Positions 3,604 to 17,775 of a stretch of DNA of 64,000 nt are shown here, one piece after another. The stretch lies in assembly GCF_014697025.1 (NCBI RefSeq), contig NZ_JACJRC010000005.1:124001-188000 (forward strand), given 5' to 3'. Under the pieces are notes generated by a model that saw only the letters and a list, made by a program, of their open reading frames with translations, did not search any database and was not told the origin of the DNA. A program made the position numbers and the translations under genes. This DNA is from Alkalinema sp. FACHB-956. Lineage in GTDB: Bacteria; Cyanobacteriota; Cyanobacteriia; Leptolyngbyales; Leptolyngbyaceae. How positions within the stretch are numbered: position 1 is the first letter of the stretch; each line of letters opens with the position of its first letter.

Positions 3604-3643
3604 ATCAAGTCGCCTCTGGGTAGGGTTTGGAGAATGGGGAGGC

Positions 3644-3725
3644 GCGTTCCTTCAGGAAGGGATTTTCCCTACTTCCGTCCTCCGAAGCACTCCATTACAT
3701 AAGAGCAGATGCTGGAAGATGAACG
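3644..3725 (-). promoter_or_regulatory. Glutamine riboswitch (glnA RNA motif)
   Basis: Read on the - strand, all hallmark elements of the glnA-type glutamine riboswitch occur in order. P1 is CGUUC (3725-3721) pairing with GAACG (3649-3645). P2 is UCUUCC (3719-3714) with GGAGGA (3683-3678). The conserved CGGAAGUAGG is at 3677-3668, P3 is AGGGA/UCCCU (3670-3666/3662-3658), and the conserved GAAGGAACGC is at 3653-3644. Just downstream CGCCTC (3644-3639) can pair with GAGGCG (3616-3611), covering the likely ribosome binding site of the DUF4278 gene, so translational control is plausible. A possible -10 (TAAAAT, 3747-3742) lies about 20 nt upstream. An extra UUCC-UGAA-GGAA hairpin option near P3 is unusual. 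Confidence 0.88.
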
Positions 3726-3867
3726 TTATACTTTATTCTGTATTTTAAGATACCGAATTAATCTTTGTCGATGATTTAAGAAAGCTTTAACTTTGATCTA
3801 AGGCTCAGAAAAGCTTGATATAAGAGCATCTCCGGGAAAACTCGTAAATTATTGATTTTTTATGAAT

Positions 3868-11347: not shown

Positions 11348-11730
11348 ATGCTAGGACGAAGCCGCATCGTTTTTGCCACTGCTTTAGAAGGCAAGTCGTT
11401 GTTAACACTTACCGTTAAATGCCTGGAAGAATTGTTCACCTTTGTAAAGTGGGATTGACAGGCATGGGCGTTTATTTGTACTGTGTTCAGTCATAGCGAT
11501 CGCCATGGACATCCTTCTTTCGTGAGACGGTTTGGCATGAAGCATGGGGTCGCTGGGATCCTAAAAATTTAGGGCACTACCCTTTGTTGGTGAGACAACT
11601 CCGGGTAGCTATTCCCCCGCGCTGTTCGTGGCAGCAAGGAGGCTTGATGAGGATTTTAGCATCTGACCGAGCCACTCTTGTTTGTGATGTCAAACGGGGT
11701 GGCTCTAAATTTTTGGGCTTTCTTCCGCAG

Positions 11731-11775
11731 CCCTCATCCCCGACCCTTCTCCCACACGCGGGCGAAGGGAGCAAG
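11731..11775. repeat. REP-like palindrome
   Basis: CCCTTCTCCC (11744-11753) and GGGCGAAGGG (11760-11769 region) form a hairpin within CCCTCATCCCCGACCCTTCT... From memory, elements of this type are scattered through many cyanobacterial genomes. The surrounding spacer 11258-11821 holds no clear gene. Confidence 0.55.
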
Positions 11776-11821
11776 ATTGCAGCAGGGATGGGATTCACTA
11801 CAAACAGGAGAAGCTCACATT

Positions 11822-12034
11822 ATGGCGAAAGGTTCTAGCGATCGGAATGATCGCTCGATCGAACAGTTGCATCCATACTATCGGTTACAACTTTTTGGCA
11901 CTAAGGAAACGGTAGAGTCAATCATTAACCGATTGCATTCGATCGGGTTTGTGGACAGGGTTTACTGGGGAAAACCGATGCCTGTGCCTGGGGTGGAAGG
12001 CGAATGGGTTAGCGTGTTGCAACGGCGTTGGTAA
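11822..12034 (+). CDS. Conserved small cyanobacterial protein (70 aa)
   Basis: The ATG at 11822 (MAKGSSDRNDRSIEQLHPYY) lies 9 nt after an AGGAG at 11808. The core HPYYRLQLFGTKETVESIIN followed by RLHSIGFVDRVYWGKPMPVP and EWVSVLQRRW has the pattern of a small single-domain protein that I associate with cyanobacteria, but I know no function. No signal peptide or membrane segment. An upstream in-frame ATG at 11678 would include repeat-derived residues and is rejected. Confidence 0.7.
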   Translation: MAKGSSDRNDRSIEQLHPYYRLQLFGTKETVESIINRLHSIGFVDRVYWGKPMPVPGVEGEWVSVLQRRW

Positions 12035-12341
12035 AGGCTGAGGCGTAGGTGTCCCGCAGGTTTGCTTATCTTGGAGTCTGTGGGTACCTCGCTCAAATGA
12101 GGTATCCGATTCCTAGCGAATCGACCTAAATCGATCTAATTAGAATTTTTGGATATTAGGCGGCAAAGGAAGCTGAGGAGAGTGGAAGAAATGCTGAAAT
12201 CTCCAGAATTTTGATTTGTCAAGGGTTAATATACGGAGAATCTATTCATCCTAATGTCCCATTTTTCCAATTAGATAGAATTTTTCTATCCATTTGGTGT
12301 CTATGGGGGTATTAGGCAGAAAAAATCGATCCAATAATATA
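12035..12341. other. Intergenic region before the first cassette
   Basis: No gene or attC is seen. The DNA is AT-rich. It ends at GTTAGGC (12342-12348), which matches the GTTRRRY core site that marks integron cassette junctions. No integrase or canonical attI was recognised in it. Confidence 0.5.
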
Positions 12342-12342
12342 G

Positions 12343-13049
12343 TTAGGCGTCAAAACATTCAGCGTCACGCGAATACGGCCCATTTGGGCGCAATTGTGCT
12401 ATAGGATGAACTCATGCTTTATCGCTTTGCAATTCTTGCCGTGGTTTGGACTACAGCCGTACCAGGGTTTGCACAGAACGTGCTCAGCACACAAGCTGTA
12501 ACGGCAAGGGTGATTCAAGCTGCCGCTAACTATCAGGCGGCGATCTCATGCAATGACATACCCCCAGAGGCGAAGAATATTGCGGCGCTTGTTCCGTATA
12601 GGATACACGAAGATCGAATGAATGCAATGTATGCAGTTTTCTGGAGCGGAGATATCGGGTGCAATGGCGGATCAGGTACGACGTTTATGAATTTGTCGAT
12701 CGTAACAGTCGGTGTTGCAGATACGTTTATTGTCGACCCACTACGGTCATCACCTGCGGTGTCTATTGATTTCCCATCGAGAGGGTATGAAAGAATTGTC
12801 GGAAACACCAAGGACTCAATAATAATTGATGCCGCTGATTATGGGCCGAATGATTCCAACTGTTGTCCTTCTCTTCGATTCCGATACACGCTGAAGCTCG
12901 ACGAAAAGGGGAACTGGAATCAAGTCGCGAAGAAGCAGTTGCCGCCAAAGAGGTAATCTCAGGGAGTTGCCGATGTATACAACAAGCAACGTTGACGCCT
13001 AACACCTCAGTCAACCGGACCCGCCACGGCAGGCCGGTTACTTCGAGCG
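12343..13049 (+). mobile_element. Integron-type gene cassette 1
   Basis: The unit runs from inside the core site G/TTAGGC (12342-12348) to the G of G/TTATGC (13049-13055). It holds one ORF in the + direction (12414-12956) followed by an attC site, the standard cassette plan. The 707-bp length and the short 5' leader (71 bp) are typical. No integron integrase is present in the window, so this would be an integrase-less attC cluster (CALIN-like) or an isolated insertion. Confidence 0.7.
12414..12956 (+). CDS. Exported hypothetical protein, cassette-borne
   Basis: A 180-residue protein with a Sec signal peptide (MLYRFAILAVVWTTAVPGFA, cleavage likely after GFA|QN). The mature part has four cysteines (SCNDIP, DIGCNGG, SNCCPSLRF) that could form disulfides, and ends in a polar stretch RYTLKLDEKGNWNQVAKKQL. 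I do not recognise a family. The style resembles proteobacterial (Xanthomonas/Lysobacter-like) cassette proteins more than cyanobacterial ones; this is an impression only. Confidence 0.7.
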   Translation: MLYRFAILAVVWTTAVPGFAQNVLSTQAVTARVIQAAANYQAAISCNDIPPEAKNIAALVPYRIHEDRMNAMYAVFWSGDIGCNGGSGTTFMNLSIVTVGVADTFIVDPLRSSPAVSIDFPSRGYERIVGNTKDSIIIDAADYGPNDSNCCPSLRFRYTLKLDEKGNWNQVAKKQLPPKR

Positions 13050-13055
13050 TTATGC
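12997..13055 (+). repeat. attC site (59-base element)
   Basis: Exactly 59 bp. R'' is GCCTAAC (12997-13003) and R' is GTTATGC (13049-13055), complementary at 6 of 7 positions. L'' AGTCAACCGG (13009-13018) pairs with L' CCGGTTACT (13034-13042) except for one unpaired C in L''. On the folded bottom strand that is the single extrahelical G that sets polarity in attC sites. The spacers (ACCTC, TCGAGC) have normal length. It lies 41 bp after the stop of the cassette ORF, in the correct orientation. Confidence 0.85.
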
Positions 13056-14496
13056 TTCTAATTGGGTATGAGGAAAAATATTAATGTCCTGTCGAATTCT
13101 TCATTGCGGGAAGTCACTTAATAATTACAATCTTTGTATTGAGTATTCAGTTGCTGGTTTCGGTACGCGAGGGCCAGAAAAAGATGACATTATTTTTCTC
13201 GCAGTCAACCATGAAAAGCAAACTCTTTGTGGACTTCGGGCAAGGCTAGGCGAACCAACGGATCAACAGCCGTGGCCCGATGCGGATCGTTATGTGTCAG
13301 CCTATAAACTTATTGATATTGAGTATGCTAATCCCTTTGATATTCGTTTCCTTGTAGACTACGGCGGAAAGTACTGGCCTCTTAAGTTTCTACAAGGTGC
13401 TAAAGCTATAAAAGATGAAAAGGCTGTCCAAGCACTTCATGATGCTTTTGACAAACACCGTGTCGAACAACCTGTGCGGTTACTTAAGGGAAATGACTTA
13501 AATACTGAAGAGAAGGAAGAGGAAGAGGATACTCTTCTAGAAGTCGATTCAAGTGAACTGTCAGAAGTGCTTTTAGAAGTTCCGGAAGCCAAAATTAATG
13601 TTATGGGGACGTTTCAGACAATTCCATTCAAAAATGAGACAGATGCTCTTCGTGGTCTCGAAAGTCTAGTAAACGAGAATTTTTACAACCTATTTCCTCG
13701 CTATAGCTCTAATCAATCCTTGCTGATTCCAGAAAATCGCTTATTTTTATCGTCTGGCGTTGAAGCACGTGGCGAAAGACTAATTAAAGGCATTAGATCT
13801 ATTCCTGATGCACTTTTGATCGTCTATAGTGAGTATGAAAAGCAGCCCTTTAAAATTGCACTAATTGAATACGAATGCTTTGGCGAGAACAAGACTCGTT
13901 CTCAGGAAAAGTCAAATTATCTCAACGGGCAAGTGATTCCTCAACTCATGCGATTTGCATCTGCATTTAGTATAGTCACTGATAAGCAGATCCGAGATCA
14001 GACTATTAAGATGTGGGTTGATAAGATTATACAGTACATATACGTGACTCCAGAATATATTAGCAAGTTTTCAGGTTGGATTAAACAAATTCGTCCAGAA
14101 CTTTCAGACCAACTGGTTGGGCGAGAGATCGATCGAGTTCTCACTGAAGCTTTTCAAAAAGCCCTGCAAATTCTTTTGATTATTGATGATTTGAGTGACG
14201 AACAAAAGGACACAATTACTAACGTAATTCGAGCATTTAAGCTTGAGAGTGGTGAGAGTATAGAGTTTATTTCGTACATTGTCCGTCTTGAACAACGTAT
14301 TCGGGTTTCAGATGCTGATGCGGAATATGCTCTATCAGTTCAATAATAAACAGTGGAGAGTGTAGGAGTTGATTCTGAATGGTTTTGCTCACATGACAGT
14401 TCTCGGTTGAAAAGCATAAAAATCCGCTTGCACACTGACCGTATCAAGTTGGTTGGCTGAGTCCGAAAGGTTACTGTCGGTGGGTGAAGCGGAACG
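13050..14496 (+). mobile_element. Probable integron-type gene cassette 2
   Basis: Starts inside the R' of the first attC (G/TTATGC) and contains one + strand ORF (13084-14346) with a 34-bp leader. Its 3' boundary is less certain: an attC-like inverted repeat ends in GTTAGAA (14496-14502), which breaks the consensus at the last base. The unit looks more AT-rich than its surroundings. Confidence 0.5.
13084..14346 (+). CDS. Hypothetical protein, possible PD-(D/E)XK-type nuclease
   Basis: A 420-residue protein I cannot assign by name. Residues about 14-95 (KDDIIFLAVNHEKQTLCGLR and DRYVSAYKLIDIEYANPFDI) have the spacing of PUA-superfamily folds such as EVE/ASCH domains. Residues 141-165 are a highly acidic linker (TEEKEEEEDTLLEVDSSELS). 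Residues 240-265 read IPDALLIVY...IALIEYEC: Pro241-Asp242, then Glu262-x-Glu264, compatible with a PD-(D/E)XK core of the ExE type. The following helix (SNYLNGQVIPQLMRFASAFS) is also compatible. The C-terminal 120 residues are helical. The function is inferred only; defence or DNA-modification sensing is a testable guess. Confidence 0.6.
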   Translation: MSCRILHCGKSLNNYNLCIEYSVAGFGTRGPEKDDIIFLAVNHEKQTLCGLRARLGEPTDQQPWPDADRYVSAYKLIDIEYANPFDIRFLVDYGGKYWPLKFLQGAKAIKDEKAVQALHDAFDKHRVEQPVRLLKGNDLNTEEKEEEEDTLLEVDSSELSEVLLEVPEAKINVMGTFQTIPFKNETDALRGLESLVNENFYNLFPRYSSNQSLLIPENRLFLSSGVEARGERLIKGIRSIPDALLIVYSEYEKQPFKIALIEYECFGENKTRSQEKSNYLNGQVIPQLMRFASAFSIVTDKQIRDQTIKMWVDKIIQYIYVTPEYISKFSGWIKQIRPELSDQLVGREIDRVLTEAFQKALQILLIIDDLSDEQKDTITNVIRAFKLESGESIEFISYIVRLEQRIRVSDADAEYALSVQ

Positions 14497-14502
14497 TTAG
14501 AA
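14414..14502 (+). repeat. attC-like inverted repeat (degenerate)
   Basis: TCCGCTTGCAC (14423-14433) pairs with GTGAAGCGGA (14484-14493) leaving one extra G in the left arm, and ACCG (14438-14441) pairs with CGGT (14478-14481). The right end is GTTAGAA (14496-14502). The layout mimics an attC with one extrahelical base in L'', but R'' (GCATAAA) pairs poorly with R' and the spacers are only 2 nt. It could be a decayed attC or an unrelated hairpin. Confidence 0.35.
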
Positions 14503-14688
14503 CTCCACGCGCTGACGCACCATCAGGGTGGAAGGAATTGATTTTCTGATGAGTAGTTATGCTTGTTGAAAATCTAAACTTAGAATCTGTTGTAAATACT
14601 GAAAGAGCTGATCAACGTGCCGTAAGTTAGACCGTAAAAGTTCATTACTAACGAGTAGTTTAAAGCAGCATTCATCAAGGAGATGCCT

Positions 14689-15216
14689 GTGAATAAAGTT
14701 GCTGTGTTTGGTAATGCTGGAGGTGGGAAGTCTACTCTCAGTAAACGTTTAGCAGAAATGACAGGTTTGCCTATGGTCGCTTTAGATCTTCTGAAGTATC
14801 AACCTGGCGGTGGCGAAGTTCCCTACGAAGAATATAAAGCTGCTCATGATCAACTCCTCCAGAAAGACCAATGGATCATTGATGGATATGGATCATTAGA
14901 TACGGTATGGGAACGACTGGAGGTTGCAGATACCTTGGTCTATGTGGATATGCCAGTTCTCCAGCACTATTGGTGGGTAACGAAGCGATTCTTGAAAGGC
15001 TTTCTAGTGCCACCAGAAAATTGGCCTAAGAATAGTCCGCTCTTGAAGGGTACGCTAAACAGTTATTATACGGTTTGGCTATGCCATAAGAAGCTGACTC
15101 CACAGTATCGAGAGTACGTGCAGAAAGCTAAGGCAAGTAAGCGGGTTTATCATCTTCAGTCCCCTCAGCACGTAAAAGAGTTCTACCAAGCTATCAAAAT
15201 AGAACGTGCAAAATAA
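14689..15216 (+). CDS. P-loop kinase-like protein (adenylate kinase/topology modulation family)
   Basis: A 175-residue protein with a Walker A motif GNAGGGKST (residues 8-16) and a DGYGS segment after a central helix. The overall pattern (deep P-loop, YVDMPVLQHYWWVTKRFLKG lid-like region) fits the adenylate kinase-like family often labelled topology modulation protein. The GTG at 14689 is preferred: AAGGAG (14677-14682) lies 6 nt before it, whereas the in-frame ATG at 14683 directly abuts that SD. The substrate is unknown. It follows the cassette region but I found no attC after it. Confidence 0.75.
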   Translation: MNKVAVFGNAGGGKSTLSKRLAEMTGLPMVALDLLKYQPGGGEVPYEEYKAAHDQLLQKDQWIIDGYGSLDTVWERLEVADTLVYVDMPVLQHYWWVTKRFLKGFLVPPENWPKNSPLLKGTLNSYYTVWLCHKKLTPQYREYVQKAKASKRVYHLQSPQHVKEFYQAIKIERAK

Positions 15217-15622
15217 AGGTGATTGGTGGTGTTCAAAAACGCTCAAAGAGCTATGTGCCCTTCCAAAACTGCCCACGAGGCGATTTGCCAGATGAGATTG
15301 GAGGAACGTAGTGCATCTCCAGCCAACACGTCATGGCAAGAGCAGAGCGCCCAGGAGGTTGGTAGTAGGGCAGTAACAAGAGGCACCTCAGTTTCCATCT
15401 GTCTTCACACAGAATTGACATTAGCTATGAAAACACTGAAGAATTAATGTTTTTTTGACAAAGCTCGACGGGAACTCTAGATAATTTCCGGCAGTTGAGT
15501 AAAGTATTGAAGAGCTACATTACTTCTTTGAAAAGAAGCTGAAAAGCCTTTTCAAGCTGATGTAGAACAGCATCTACCTTCGTGCTCAAGCTGATTTTAT
15601 ACAAACGAAGGAGATTTAATTC
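15217..15622. other. Intergenic region, no gene recognised
   Basis: 406 bp between the P-loop gene and the PTPA-CTERM pseudogene. A 74-codon frame at 15223-15447 has no recognisable similarity, no good ribosome site and an implausible composition. An AAGGAG at 15608 serves the next reading frame. Confidence 0.4.
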
Positions 15623-16285
15623 ATGGCTCAGTTGCAATGGATGTCCGTTGGGTTAGTCACGGCTGCGGCTCTTGCTCTTGCTCCGGTTAACGCTGCCCAT
15701 GCGTTGCTGATCACTGGAGTCACCGCCTCAACTGATATGGCTTCATTTTCAGGTTCTAATATTCAAAACACGGTGAATGGAGTAGGATTACCAGGCAACA
15801 CCCCCAGCCTGACATGAGATCATGCTGTTGCTGATTTGAGCAATGCCTGGATCAGTAGTGTTGGTACTACGACTGGAAATATAAACTTCAACCTGGGTGG
15901 AGAGTACAGTCTTCAAGGGTTTAGTTTTTGGAACTTCAATAGCTTCGACCCACCAGGGCCAGGGATCAAAGATGTAAACATCTTTACGTCCCTTGACAAC
16001 ATCACTTATACTCCCTTAAGTGGTGCGCCAACGGTGTTTAATCAGGGAGTAGCTTTCAATTTAGAGCCTCCTCAAACGTTTTCTTTTTCGCCTGTGCTAG
16101 CTCGATATGTCCGCTTTCAAGTACTGAGTAACTATGGAGGAAGTACTATTGGGTTTGATGAAGTGCAATTTTTTGATAGCACTTCCACTCCCATTCCGAC
16201 TCCAGCTTTAGTGCCAGGACTGCTGGGTCTGGGTGGGGCGATATGGCGTAAGCGCAGGGCTGAAGCGGCAGAGGCTAGAGAATAG
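15623..16285 (+). pseudogene. PTPA-CTERM exported protein interrupted by in-frame TGA
   Basis: One frame of 221 codons is broken only by TGA at 15815-15817. Before the stop: signal peptide MAQLQWMSVGLVTAAALALA...AHA followed by ITGVTASTDMASFSGSNIQN. After it: DHAVADLSNAWISSVGTTTG and a discoidin-like beta domain (GGEYSLQGFSFWNFNSFDPP, ARYVRFQVLSNYGGSTIGFD). The tail PIPTPALVPGLLGLGGAIWR is the PTPA-CTERM sorting signal: motif, hydrophobic helix, then Arg/Lys cluster. Both halves look otherwise intact, so the lesion is a single recent nonsense change, a sequencing error or read-through. An intact product would be exported and processed. Confidence 0.8.
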
Positions 16286-17135
16286 AATTTTGATCGAGCA
16301 ATTTTTAGAAGGCAGTCATCTTCCTCCACAGCGAATGTTGGCGCGATTCATATTGCGACAGCGGCCCGATCGCGCAGGGTATGGATGATTTGCTGACGTT
16401 GCTGAATTGGGATATGAATCGTCGATCGCGATATCGACAGTCAGGGCACTCAATTGGATTGTTCCTACAATATTTATCCCTTGAATCAGGGTGTTGCTGA
16501 TTGGTGGTATGAATTCTTAGACAGTATTCCCTTAGCAAAATTCCCTTAACAAGGTTCTTAAGCCCCTTGCCTAATTAACAATTCATACCTAGATTCAGCA
16601 ACACCTTAATCAGCAAGGCGATCGGTGTGTCTCTCAGCTATGGCAAATTATTAGAGTAGCAATGCAAGCTAACATCCCACTCCACCGGAACGAAGTCAAG
16701 TTATCGGTGAGATACAAGGGTTATCTGTGTCTGGTGAGCAGGGTCGTTATGCTGACTGCCCAGAGAGAAACAAGCTCTTCCATTCTCTGTCTTTCCAGCA
16801 TTTCAGCTTACGTTTCAGAATTGCGGTAATTACGATCGCTCCTGTAATCGCAGCATCAATGTCATTCGAGACTCGGCGCGGACTCATCGATCGAGGCTTT
16901 TGCGACATTGATCCGTTTGTTTTCCCAGCATTCGATCGAGATTTCAGCACAAATAACTGGCTCATCGACCCAGAAACCCATCTGCGAAAGCAGCGCTCCG
17001 ATCGCCCTATTCCACATCGATCGAGCATCTCCGCTAAAATAATAACGAAGTAATTTCTTGTTAATACCGGATTTTGGCTTGTCTTAGCCAACGATCGGGC
17101 CAGATGGGGCACTCTCAGCAAAAAATAGACAAACT
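16286..17135. other. 850-bp region without a recognisable gene
   Basis: Contains the inverted-repeat element at 16490-16605. A 124-codon - strand frame (16747-17121) and a 108-codon + strand frame (16727-17053) overlap each other; neither resembles a known family. The segment 16850-17060 is rich in CGATCG, which opens spurious frames. It may hold decayed mobile DNA. Confidence 0.4.
16490..16605. mobile_element. MITE-like element with ~27-bp imperfect terminal inverted repeats
   Basis: The left end reads GGTGTTGCTGA-5 nt-GGTATGAATT and the right end, reverse-complemented, reads GGTGTTGCTGA-5 nt-GGTATGAATT as well; similarity continues into TTA after one mismatch. Total length is 116 bp with no coding capacity. 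The flanks TGAATCAG (16482-16489) and TTAATCAG (16606-16613) are near-identical 8-mers and may be a target duplication. From memory the termini resemble ends of a cyanobacterial insertion sequence, which would make this a non-autonomous derivative. Confidence 0.6.
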
Positions 17136-17444
17136 ATGCAGCCTACTCTACCCATTCAAATTTCTCAAACTAAAGTTGCCGAGTTTTGCCAGCACCATCA
17201 CATCCGCAAGCTCTCTTTGTTTGGCTCCGTCTTGCGCACTGACTTCACCCCCCAGAGTGATATTGATGTATTAGTCGAATTTGAGCCAGGAAAAACGCCT
17301 GGATTTGCTATTATCACTCTCCAGCAAGAACTTTCTTATCTCATGGAGAGTCGAACTGTTGATCTACGAACCCCCCATGAACTAAGCCGCTACATCCGCG
17401 ATCGTGTCCTCGCTGAAGCTCTGGTGCTCTATGTCCAACCTTGA
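17136..17444 (+). CDS. MNT-type nucleotidyltransferase (antitoxin of HEPN/MNT pair)
   Basis: A 102-residue minimal nucleotidyltransferase. The motif GSVLRTDFTPQSDIDVLVEF gives Gly30-Ser31 and the metal-binding Asp42 and Asp44; Asp76 (RTVDLRT) is the likely third carboxylate. MNT antitoxins neutralise their HEPN partner by adding AMP residues to it. It overlaps the HEPN gene by 14 bp, so the two are translationally coupled. Confidence 0.88.
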   Translation: MQPTLPIQISQTKVAEFCQHHHIRKLSLFGSVLRTDFTPQSDIDVLVEFEPGKTPGFAIITLQQELSYLMESRTVDLRTPHELSRYIRDRVLAEALVLYVQP

Positions 17445-17775
17445 CGACGCCACTCGACTACGCCACATGCGCGATGCCGCAGTAGAAGCGATCGGGTTCA
17501 TCCGAGATCGTAGCCGATCTGATTTGGAGGGCGATCGTATGCTGACATTAGCCCTAGTCAAAGATATCGAAATCATTGGAGAAGCCGCAGGCAGAATTTC
17601 AGCCGATCTTAGAACCAGGTACCCACATATTCCCTGGGTACAAATGATCGGAATGCGCAACCGCTTAACCCATGCCTATTTTGAGGTCGACTTAGACATT
17701 GTCTGGGAAGTTGTGACTCGTGATCTACCACCTTTAATAGTTGAATTAGAAAAAATCATTTCACTTGAAACCTAA
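17431..17775 (+). CDS. HEPN (DUF86) RNase toxin
   Basis: A 114-residue all-helical protein with the RX4-6H ribonuclease motif RNRLTH (Arg76-His81), followed by AYFEVDLDIVWEVVTRDLPP typical of DUF86. The ATG at 17431 gives MSNLDDATRLRHMRDA and fits relatives better than the frame start at 17404. With the upstream MNT gene it forms a type VII-like toxin-antitoxin module that cleaves RNA when released. It lies in the accessory region, consistent with horizontal spread. Confidence 0.88.
   Translation: MSNLDDATRLRHMRDAAVEAIGFIRDRSRSDLEGDRMLTLALVKDIEIIGEAAGRISADLRTRYPHIPWVQMIGMRNRLTHAYFEVDLDIVWEVVTRDLPPLIVELEKIISLET

Follow-up and report, generated by a model that had tools for sequence, protein, structure and literature searches.

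How does a string of gene cassettes come to lie in a cyanobacterial chromosome at a place with no integrase gene beside it? An earlier note on a window of 64,000 nt from Alkalinema sp. FACHB-956 (the whole stretch of DNA that was analysed, on contig C5) had described two integron-type cassettes there, called them an integrase-less cluster (CALIN) in a host group where integrons are uncommon, and offered capture from an aquatic proteobacterial pool as one explanation. The locus is a string of mobile gene cassettes at a landing site where an integrase gene is lacking. We consider it likely that the stretch from 12092 to about 16998 represents an integron platform that lacks an adjoining integrase, made up of an attI-type site, three attC-bearing cassette units, and a truncated fourth, whose intI would have been lost by decay, which would have been copied to other places, and which an IntI acting in trans would serve. 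The third attC, the truncated cassette 4, the attI-type site left of 12342, and the integrase elsewhere in the genome go beyond the earlier description. The features of the locus are as follows, with the crossover point between G and TT written G/TT.

11441 to 12091, + strand: repeat A, dispersed; a non-coding stretch, in which a terminator-like hairpin is seen by eye, and a 70-aa ORF (11822-12034)
12092 to 12342, + strand: attI-type leader and insertion site, crossover G at 12342 (G/TT); attI model R2, copies on C17, C20, and C42
12343 to 13049, + strand: cassette 1; left core GTTAGGC is the reverse complement of R'' GCCTAAC
12414 to 12956, + strand: ORF1, 180 aa; no family match over a cut-off, 34% identical homologue on a Thiodictyon plasmid
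12997 to 13055, + strand: attC1, 59 nt; attC model R1 31.1 bits, E 1.2e-5, and fold
13050 to 14496, + strand: cassette 2; common to loci L047 and L048 in other contexts
13084 to 14346, + strand: ORF2, 420 aa, of a family of unknown function; no family match over a cut-off
14414 to 14503, + strand: attC2, R'' box degenerate (GCATAAA); R1 49.7 bits, E 1.7e-10, and alignment, poor fold alone
14497 (putative left end) to 16746, + strand: cassette 3, possibly two fused cassettes; attC3 at its right end
14683 to 15216, + strand: P-loop kinase-like ORF in cassette 3; match below curated cut-offs
15836 to 16285, + strand: second ORF in cassette 3
16667 to 16753, + strand: attC3, R'' AGCTAAC and R' GTTATGC; R1 50.1 bits, E 1.3e-10
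16747 to about 16998, + strand: truncated cassette 4 (TTATGCTGACTGCCC...); not followed by a recognised attC in the window

The modular plan of core site, ORF, and attC that had been read from the sequence was borne out: the core sites lie at 12342 (GTTAGGC), 13049 (GTTATGC), and 14496 (GTTAGAA), the ORFs are as described, and both attC1 and the second repeat score as attC sites. As had been stated, attC1 is exactly 59 nt long, and its R'' (GCCTAAC) and R' (GTTATGC) boxes pair at 6 of 7 positions; GTTAGGCGTCAA (12342-12353) and TTGACGCCTAAC (12992-13003) are perfect inverted repeats of each other over 12 nt. For the model score that had been proposed as a check, we used R1, a covariance model trained, without window sequence, on 46 attC sites found near intI in other genomes of the family. 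Its 78 recruited sites were reduced to 56 by removing near-duplicates and to 46 by dropping nine that came from the window, L004, L047, or L048 and a weak one from L030; the window's second attC was one of the seven seeds, and window sites also took part in the recruiting rounds, though they are not in the model. The three window sites (16667-16753, 14414-14503, and 12997-13056) scored 50.1, 49.7, and 31.1 bits, while the next place in the 64 kb reached 11.0 bits (E-values of R1 are rough). In the R1 stem, 87.5% of the cells are paired, compared to 67.8% after shuffling (0 of 500 shuffles as high), covariation is 0.469, compared to 0.135 shuffled (0 of 500) and no more than 0.118 when slid, and 13 of 15 L-arm pairs have changed on both sides; two of the five stem measures did not rise above the shuffles, namely the number of doubly changed pairs, equalled in 53 of 500, and that of further pair types, equalled in 146 of 500. 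The attC1 bottom strand folds at -13.1 kcal/mol, with 2 of 200 shuffles as good. On its own, attC2 folds poorly (z -1.7, 16 of 200 shuffles as good; z 0.08 for a longer stretch), and its R'' box, GCATAAA, is without the AAC triplet; L047 and L048 have GCATAAC. A crude pairing scan for attC proved unspecific, with control matches outranking true sites, and served only for viewing R''/R' pairs in a locus of the Thiodictyon plasmid (L080).

Cassette boundaries in the arrays of the family follow a rule by which the left core is the reverse complement of the cassette's own R'': of 39 consecutive pairs compared at 11 loci, 29 agree at 7 of 7 positions, and shuffling gave a mean of 5.7 and a maximum of 14 in 5000. 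L046, whose repeats are nearly identical, was excluded from this comparison. In the window, cassette 1 fits at 7 of 7 positions and cassette 2 at 6 of 7; the left core of cassette 3 is unmatched by its R'', so the left end of this unit is putative. Cassette 2 is also a module bounded by G/TT that ends in attC and occurs in other contexts, and cassette 1 is assigned as a gene cassette by the core rule only. We found the ORF2 module in two metagenome-assembled genomes, Spirulinaceae SM2_1_0 (L047, 98% amino acid identity) and Phormidesmis priestleyi Ana (L048, 95%), with DNA identities of 91.7% over 13048-14500 and 90.9% over 13049-14488, respectively, and flanks that differ on either side. In L047, the module lies among five attC matches, between its neighbour's attC and its own intact attC. 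On sequence comparison, the presence of this module at about 91% DNA identity beside other neighbours in two genomes confirms the cassette reading. In L047, the shared stretch extends from GTTATGC to 14500. A third ORF2 relative (L049, 82% amino acid identity) matches 13071-14346 only and has no attC match, and a search of 386 genomes of the phylum, drawn from a larger group, returned ORF2 itself, one 70% relative, and one short match. Family profile searches gave no match over a cut-off for ORF1 or ORF2, and the predicted structure of ORF2 was useless (mean pLDDT 33), with a single solved-structure match at E 0.28. The poor stand-alone fold of attC2 is what one would expect if the resemblance were due to chance and these were ordinary genes with no integron history, a reading that we regard as practically negligible since it is contradicted by the model scores, the coincidence of junctions in L047 and L048, and a comparison with the same site on C17 (see below).

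The array is more than a bare CALIN because it begins at an attI-type site. In the family, units like TTAGGCGGAAA...TTCAGTCTAA and AATAATAG/TT mostly precede the cores that are predicted beside intI from the first R''. We built an attI model, R2, from 14 of 22 intI loci, all in other genomes; the genome's own C24 site, five sites without attC on the array side, and two ambiguous ones were excluded, and for L027 and L046 the second-listed of two equal cores was chosen by eye. The sole R2 match at E below 1 in the window was 12225-12345 (33.4 bits, E 4.4e-4, with a 41-base insertion relative to the model), and the arrangement of units in the left flank, TTAGGC-GAAA...TC-ATC/GTCTAA, is that of intI-adjoining attI sites, so that the left end of the array looks like an attI site. 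Genome-wide (E up to 0.5), R2 found seven places: C7 (65.0 bits), C3 (54.6 bits), C6 (48.5 bits), C24 beside intI (40.2 bits), C17 (35.9 bits), the window site on C5 (32.2 bits, E 0.07), and C21 (31.0 bits, E 0.12). Sites on C20 and C42 gave 29.6 and 23.6 bits in a local search. Eight orphan attI-type sites are therefore indicated, on C3, C5, C6, C7, C17, and, weakly, C21 by the genome-wide search and on C20 and C42 by similarity and the local search. Only C24 among the nine contigs with attI sites has a match to the integrase profile TIGR02249 (E up to 0.001), and its attI differs from the orphan type. Matches to attC lie behind the sites on C3, C5, C7, and C17; none was seen downstream of those on C6, C20, C21, and C42 in the stretches searched, and C42 ends about 1.5 kb behind its site. 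In terms of known classes, the locus has the three attC sites (12997-16753, by our own covariance model and not that of IntegronFinder) and the lack of a nearby integrase that characterise a CALIN; like a complete integron, it has an attI-type site at the array start, according to a sequence model that is weak genome-wide (E 0.07), but no intI adjoins it.

Copies of this site carry different contents. On C5, C17, C20, and C42, the copies are 87-95% identical over the 250 bp left of G/TT and 49-51% identical over the 250 bp right of it (the latter value stands without an unrelated-sequence control), and none has intI beside it. On C17, the left flank (11794-12355) recurs at 93% and the right flank (16745-16993) at 91%, with one different cassette and its own attC between them. 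A query in which the two flanks were joined (junction at 279) had 15 matches in the genome. None spans the junction, and 11 have one end there: four left halves (C5, C17, C20, and C42) end at 282-285 and seven right parts (C5, C17, C7, C41, C6, and two on C33) start at 279, and four further matches lie inside the right part. No empty site was found; the match across the junction in genome G004 (C86, 252-471) reflects an attI-type site followed immediately by cassette 4. Different attC sites precede cassette 4 (TTATGCTGACTGCCC...) on C5, C17, and C7 and at the start of C33; three copies (C33:55773, C41, and C6) have no attC before them. The idea that 16747-16998 is the right half of the platform was ruled out, because in G004 this sequence forms a cassette followed by an attC of its own.

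These copies bear on the possibility that the cluster arose by cassette insertion at a secondary chromosomal (attG) site, with no attI present. We favoured this reading at first, as attC sites proved to be scattered over the genome (15 in the genome-wide R1 search, two with filters off, and attC1, giving 18 on 11 contigs in a count of sites of at least 28 bits). It agrees with the lack of intI nearby and the moderate R2 score, and attG insertion is cited in PMC12444791 as an established route. An attG target has no attI architecture, however, and here the left flank has the attI unit layout and four copies carry different contents behind the same base, so we now hold this origin to be quite improbable.

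The sequence left of the attI-type site is itself repeated. A repeat A query (11506-11853) gave 53 matching segments in the genome, with similarity from 11441 in some copies and downstream sequence that varies from copy to copy; on C5, C6, C7, C17, C20, C21, and C42, repeat A lies about 440-515 bp upstream of the attI core on the same strand. We rejected repeat A as the landing pad itself, as its other copies precede unrelated sequence or a cassette 4 tail, none is near the C3 site, and the intI loci L027-L046 and L132 yielded no match to its small gene (70-72 aa, two types about 38% alike). The repeat often lies upstream of an orphan attI or before a cassette 4 tail. A supposed scar of an intI 3' end near 12050-12100 was also discarded, since the similarity to C24 there is a hairpin also present in copies that have no intI. 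The assembly is a draft in 59 contigs, and on C20, C32, C33, and C42 attC or attI-type sites near contig ends suggest arrays broken in assembly. The array and platform may, alternatively, have been copied by ordinary recombination or transposition, with contents diverging by deletion or gene conversion and with no action of IntI after the loss of cis intI. The dispersal of the flanking repeat A, the truncated cassette 4 common to C5 and C17, and the C20 and C42 sites with no attC behind them fit such a history; the switch of contents at G/TT in each copy would not be expected from deletion or conversion alone, and we consider ordinary copying unlikely as the whole account. Cassette exchange without a cis integrase is the simplest account, because the copies on C5, C17, C20, and C42 have the same left structure, have no intI, and differ in contents from G/TT onward.

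A candidate integrase for such exchange is encoded elsewhere in the genome. As had been noted, there is no intI in the window (none found with TIGR02249), and the suggested search beyond it identified a 320-aa, intact-looking IntI at C24:34325-35263 (453.7 bits), the sole TIGR02249 match over the cut-off; there are two weak matches (33 and 24 bits), and all matches at E up to 0.001 are on C24, C15, and C35, with none on C5. The C24 IntI aligns over residues 11-319 of 320 with Vibrio cholerae IntI4. The description of the cluster as an integrase-less CALIN therefore stands locally but not for the genome, since C24 encodes a full-length IntI, and it omits the attI-type site that the locus has kept. 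Divergent from the C24 intI, in first-cassette position, is a lincosamide nucleotidyltransferase-like ORF (L004:7476-8015, - strand; match below curated cut-offs) with an attC of 72.2 bits behind it.

Contrary to what had been assumed, integrons are not uncommon in the family of this host: intI over the TIGR02249 cut-off is present in 28 of 42 genomes of the family, and R1 found attC in 41 of 41, with 3 to 94 sites each. Across the phylum, 23 of 386 genomes have intI over the cut-off. Integrons in Cyanobacteria have already been published (PMC2426708), and a cyanobacterial attC model exists (PMC8352920). In the relative G015, loci L028 and L046 contain runs of equal-score attC spaced mostly 306-308 bp apart, which are many copies of a very short cassette.

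Orphan attI sites occur in relatives as well. R2 matches that do not lie beside a full-length intI were likewise obtained in G011, G015, and G024, each a single contig, and five of the eight that we fetched keep only parts of intI alongside: residues 1-115 and 251-313 in G011 (at 1.65 Mb), 1-105 and 1-82 in G015, and 1-63 and 1-44 in G024, each extent being that of whichever of five IntI queries matched furthest. At the remaining three there was no intI remnant (nothing better than E 0.7). Behind the attI of the remnant-bearing sites, attC is found in three cases (L135, L137, and L138); L139 has attC only upstream and L140 has none. One of the three remnant-free sites has a weak attC behind it (L142, 26.4 bits). 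Because intI fragments of differing extent lie beside persisting attI sites, decay of intI is seen in several stages. No remnant was detectable at the window site (best E 0.09) or at the sites on C3, C6, C7, C17, C20, C21, and C42.

From these comparisons, the locus is probably an integron that lost its cis intI, kept its attI and cassettes, and is served in trans. The intI once beside the window attI would have been lost by decay, and the platform would have been copied to other places in the genome. An IntI encoded elsewhere, on C24 or by a gene since lost, could then insert and remove cassettes at the orphan sites in trans, recombining folded attC bottom strands with attI at G/TT. We further propose, tentatively, a distributed integron in which one IntI may serve many scattered attI sites that have no integrase of their own, giving several independent arrays, each behind its own leader. 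Several findings count against the reading of the locus as a platform served in trans: the window site is weak in the genome-wide R2 search (32.2 bits, E 0.07), the C24 attI is unlike the orphan type, four of the eight orphan sites show no attC downstream over the stretches searched, attC2 is degenerate, the left core of cassette 3 is unmatched, no intI remnant is detectable at the eight orphan sites of this genome, and the assembly is a draft.

The locus shares features with known systems and differs from each. CALINs, in the accessible descriptions, likewise have at least two attC and no intI nearby; the window locus differs in having kept at its left end an attI-type site that recurs elsewhere in the genome with other contents. 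The intI-bearing chromosomal integrons of the family have the same attC type and attI layout, with intI beside attI, whereas the window locus has intI on another contig. In attG insertion, as Loot et al. 2024 are said to have described it, cassettes are placed away from the intI locus. That location is common to both, and the window site differs in its attI-type architecture and its copies. In Xanthomonas, CALINs away from ilvD have been described at seven loci in different species; they too are groups of attC sites apart from the intI locus, and the accessible part of that report mentions no attI at these clusters, unlike the attI-type site in the window (PMC12444791). From the accessible text on it, IntegronFinder does not detect attI sites outside class 1. 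In the literature searched, in which subscription journals were thinly covered and some sources partial, we found no paper that describes a single genome with several orphan attI platforms. The family attI profile suggests that some integrase-less clusters still carry attI, multiplied in single genomes, and that intI decays in stages around attI sites. It makes directly testable the question of whether such clusters stay live, fed in trans by one integrase.

The origin of the cassettes was the last point raised by the earlier note. Capture of the whole cluster from an aquatic proteobacterial pool gains something from ORF1, which has no convincing relative in the 386 phylum genomes (itself and two weak partial matches of 26-27%) and which found two matches among 72,556 plasmid records, the better of them (34% identical) on pTs485 of the gammaproteobacterium Candidatus Thiodictyon syntrophicum, where it is surrounded by attC-like sites about 97 nt long. 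The rest of the cluster speaks otherwise: attC2 and attC3 score about 50 bits with the attC model of the family, and the DNA-level relatives of ORF2 are cyanobacterial metagenome-assembled genomes. Capture as a unit is thus very improbable, and of all the cassettes only cassette 1 may be foreign, an origin that fits the lack of a convincing ORF1 relative in the phylum and the pTs485 match, with the source unproven. The attC1 site, which may be of either type, also matches R1 (31.1 bits). R1 gave only 12-15 bits for three of the pTs485 attC-like sites, a 73-nt stretch with attC1 had no match among the plasmid records, and nothing was found for ORF1 in viral contigs. On pTs485, the array of attC-like sites of about 97 nt is absent from the listed features, and a run of hypothetical genes and a DarT-like gene lie beside it.

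Ten named proteins of the window are of housekeeping types or unmatched. To the right of the array, a small ORF (17136-17444, + strand) matches the candidate defence family PDC-S09 (PADLOC) and overlaps a short ORF at 17404-17775, and on the far left of the window there is a glutamine riboswitch (3641-3727, - strand; Rfam RF01739, 48.1 bits).
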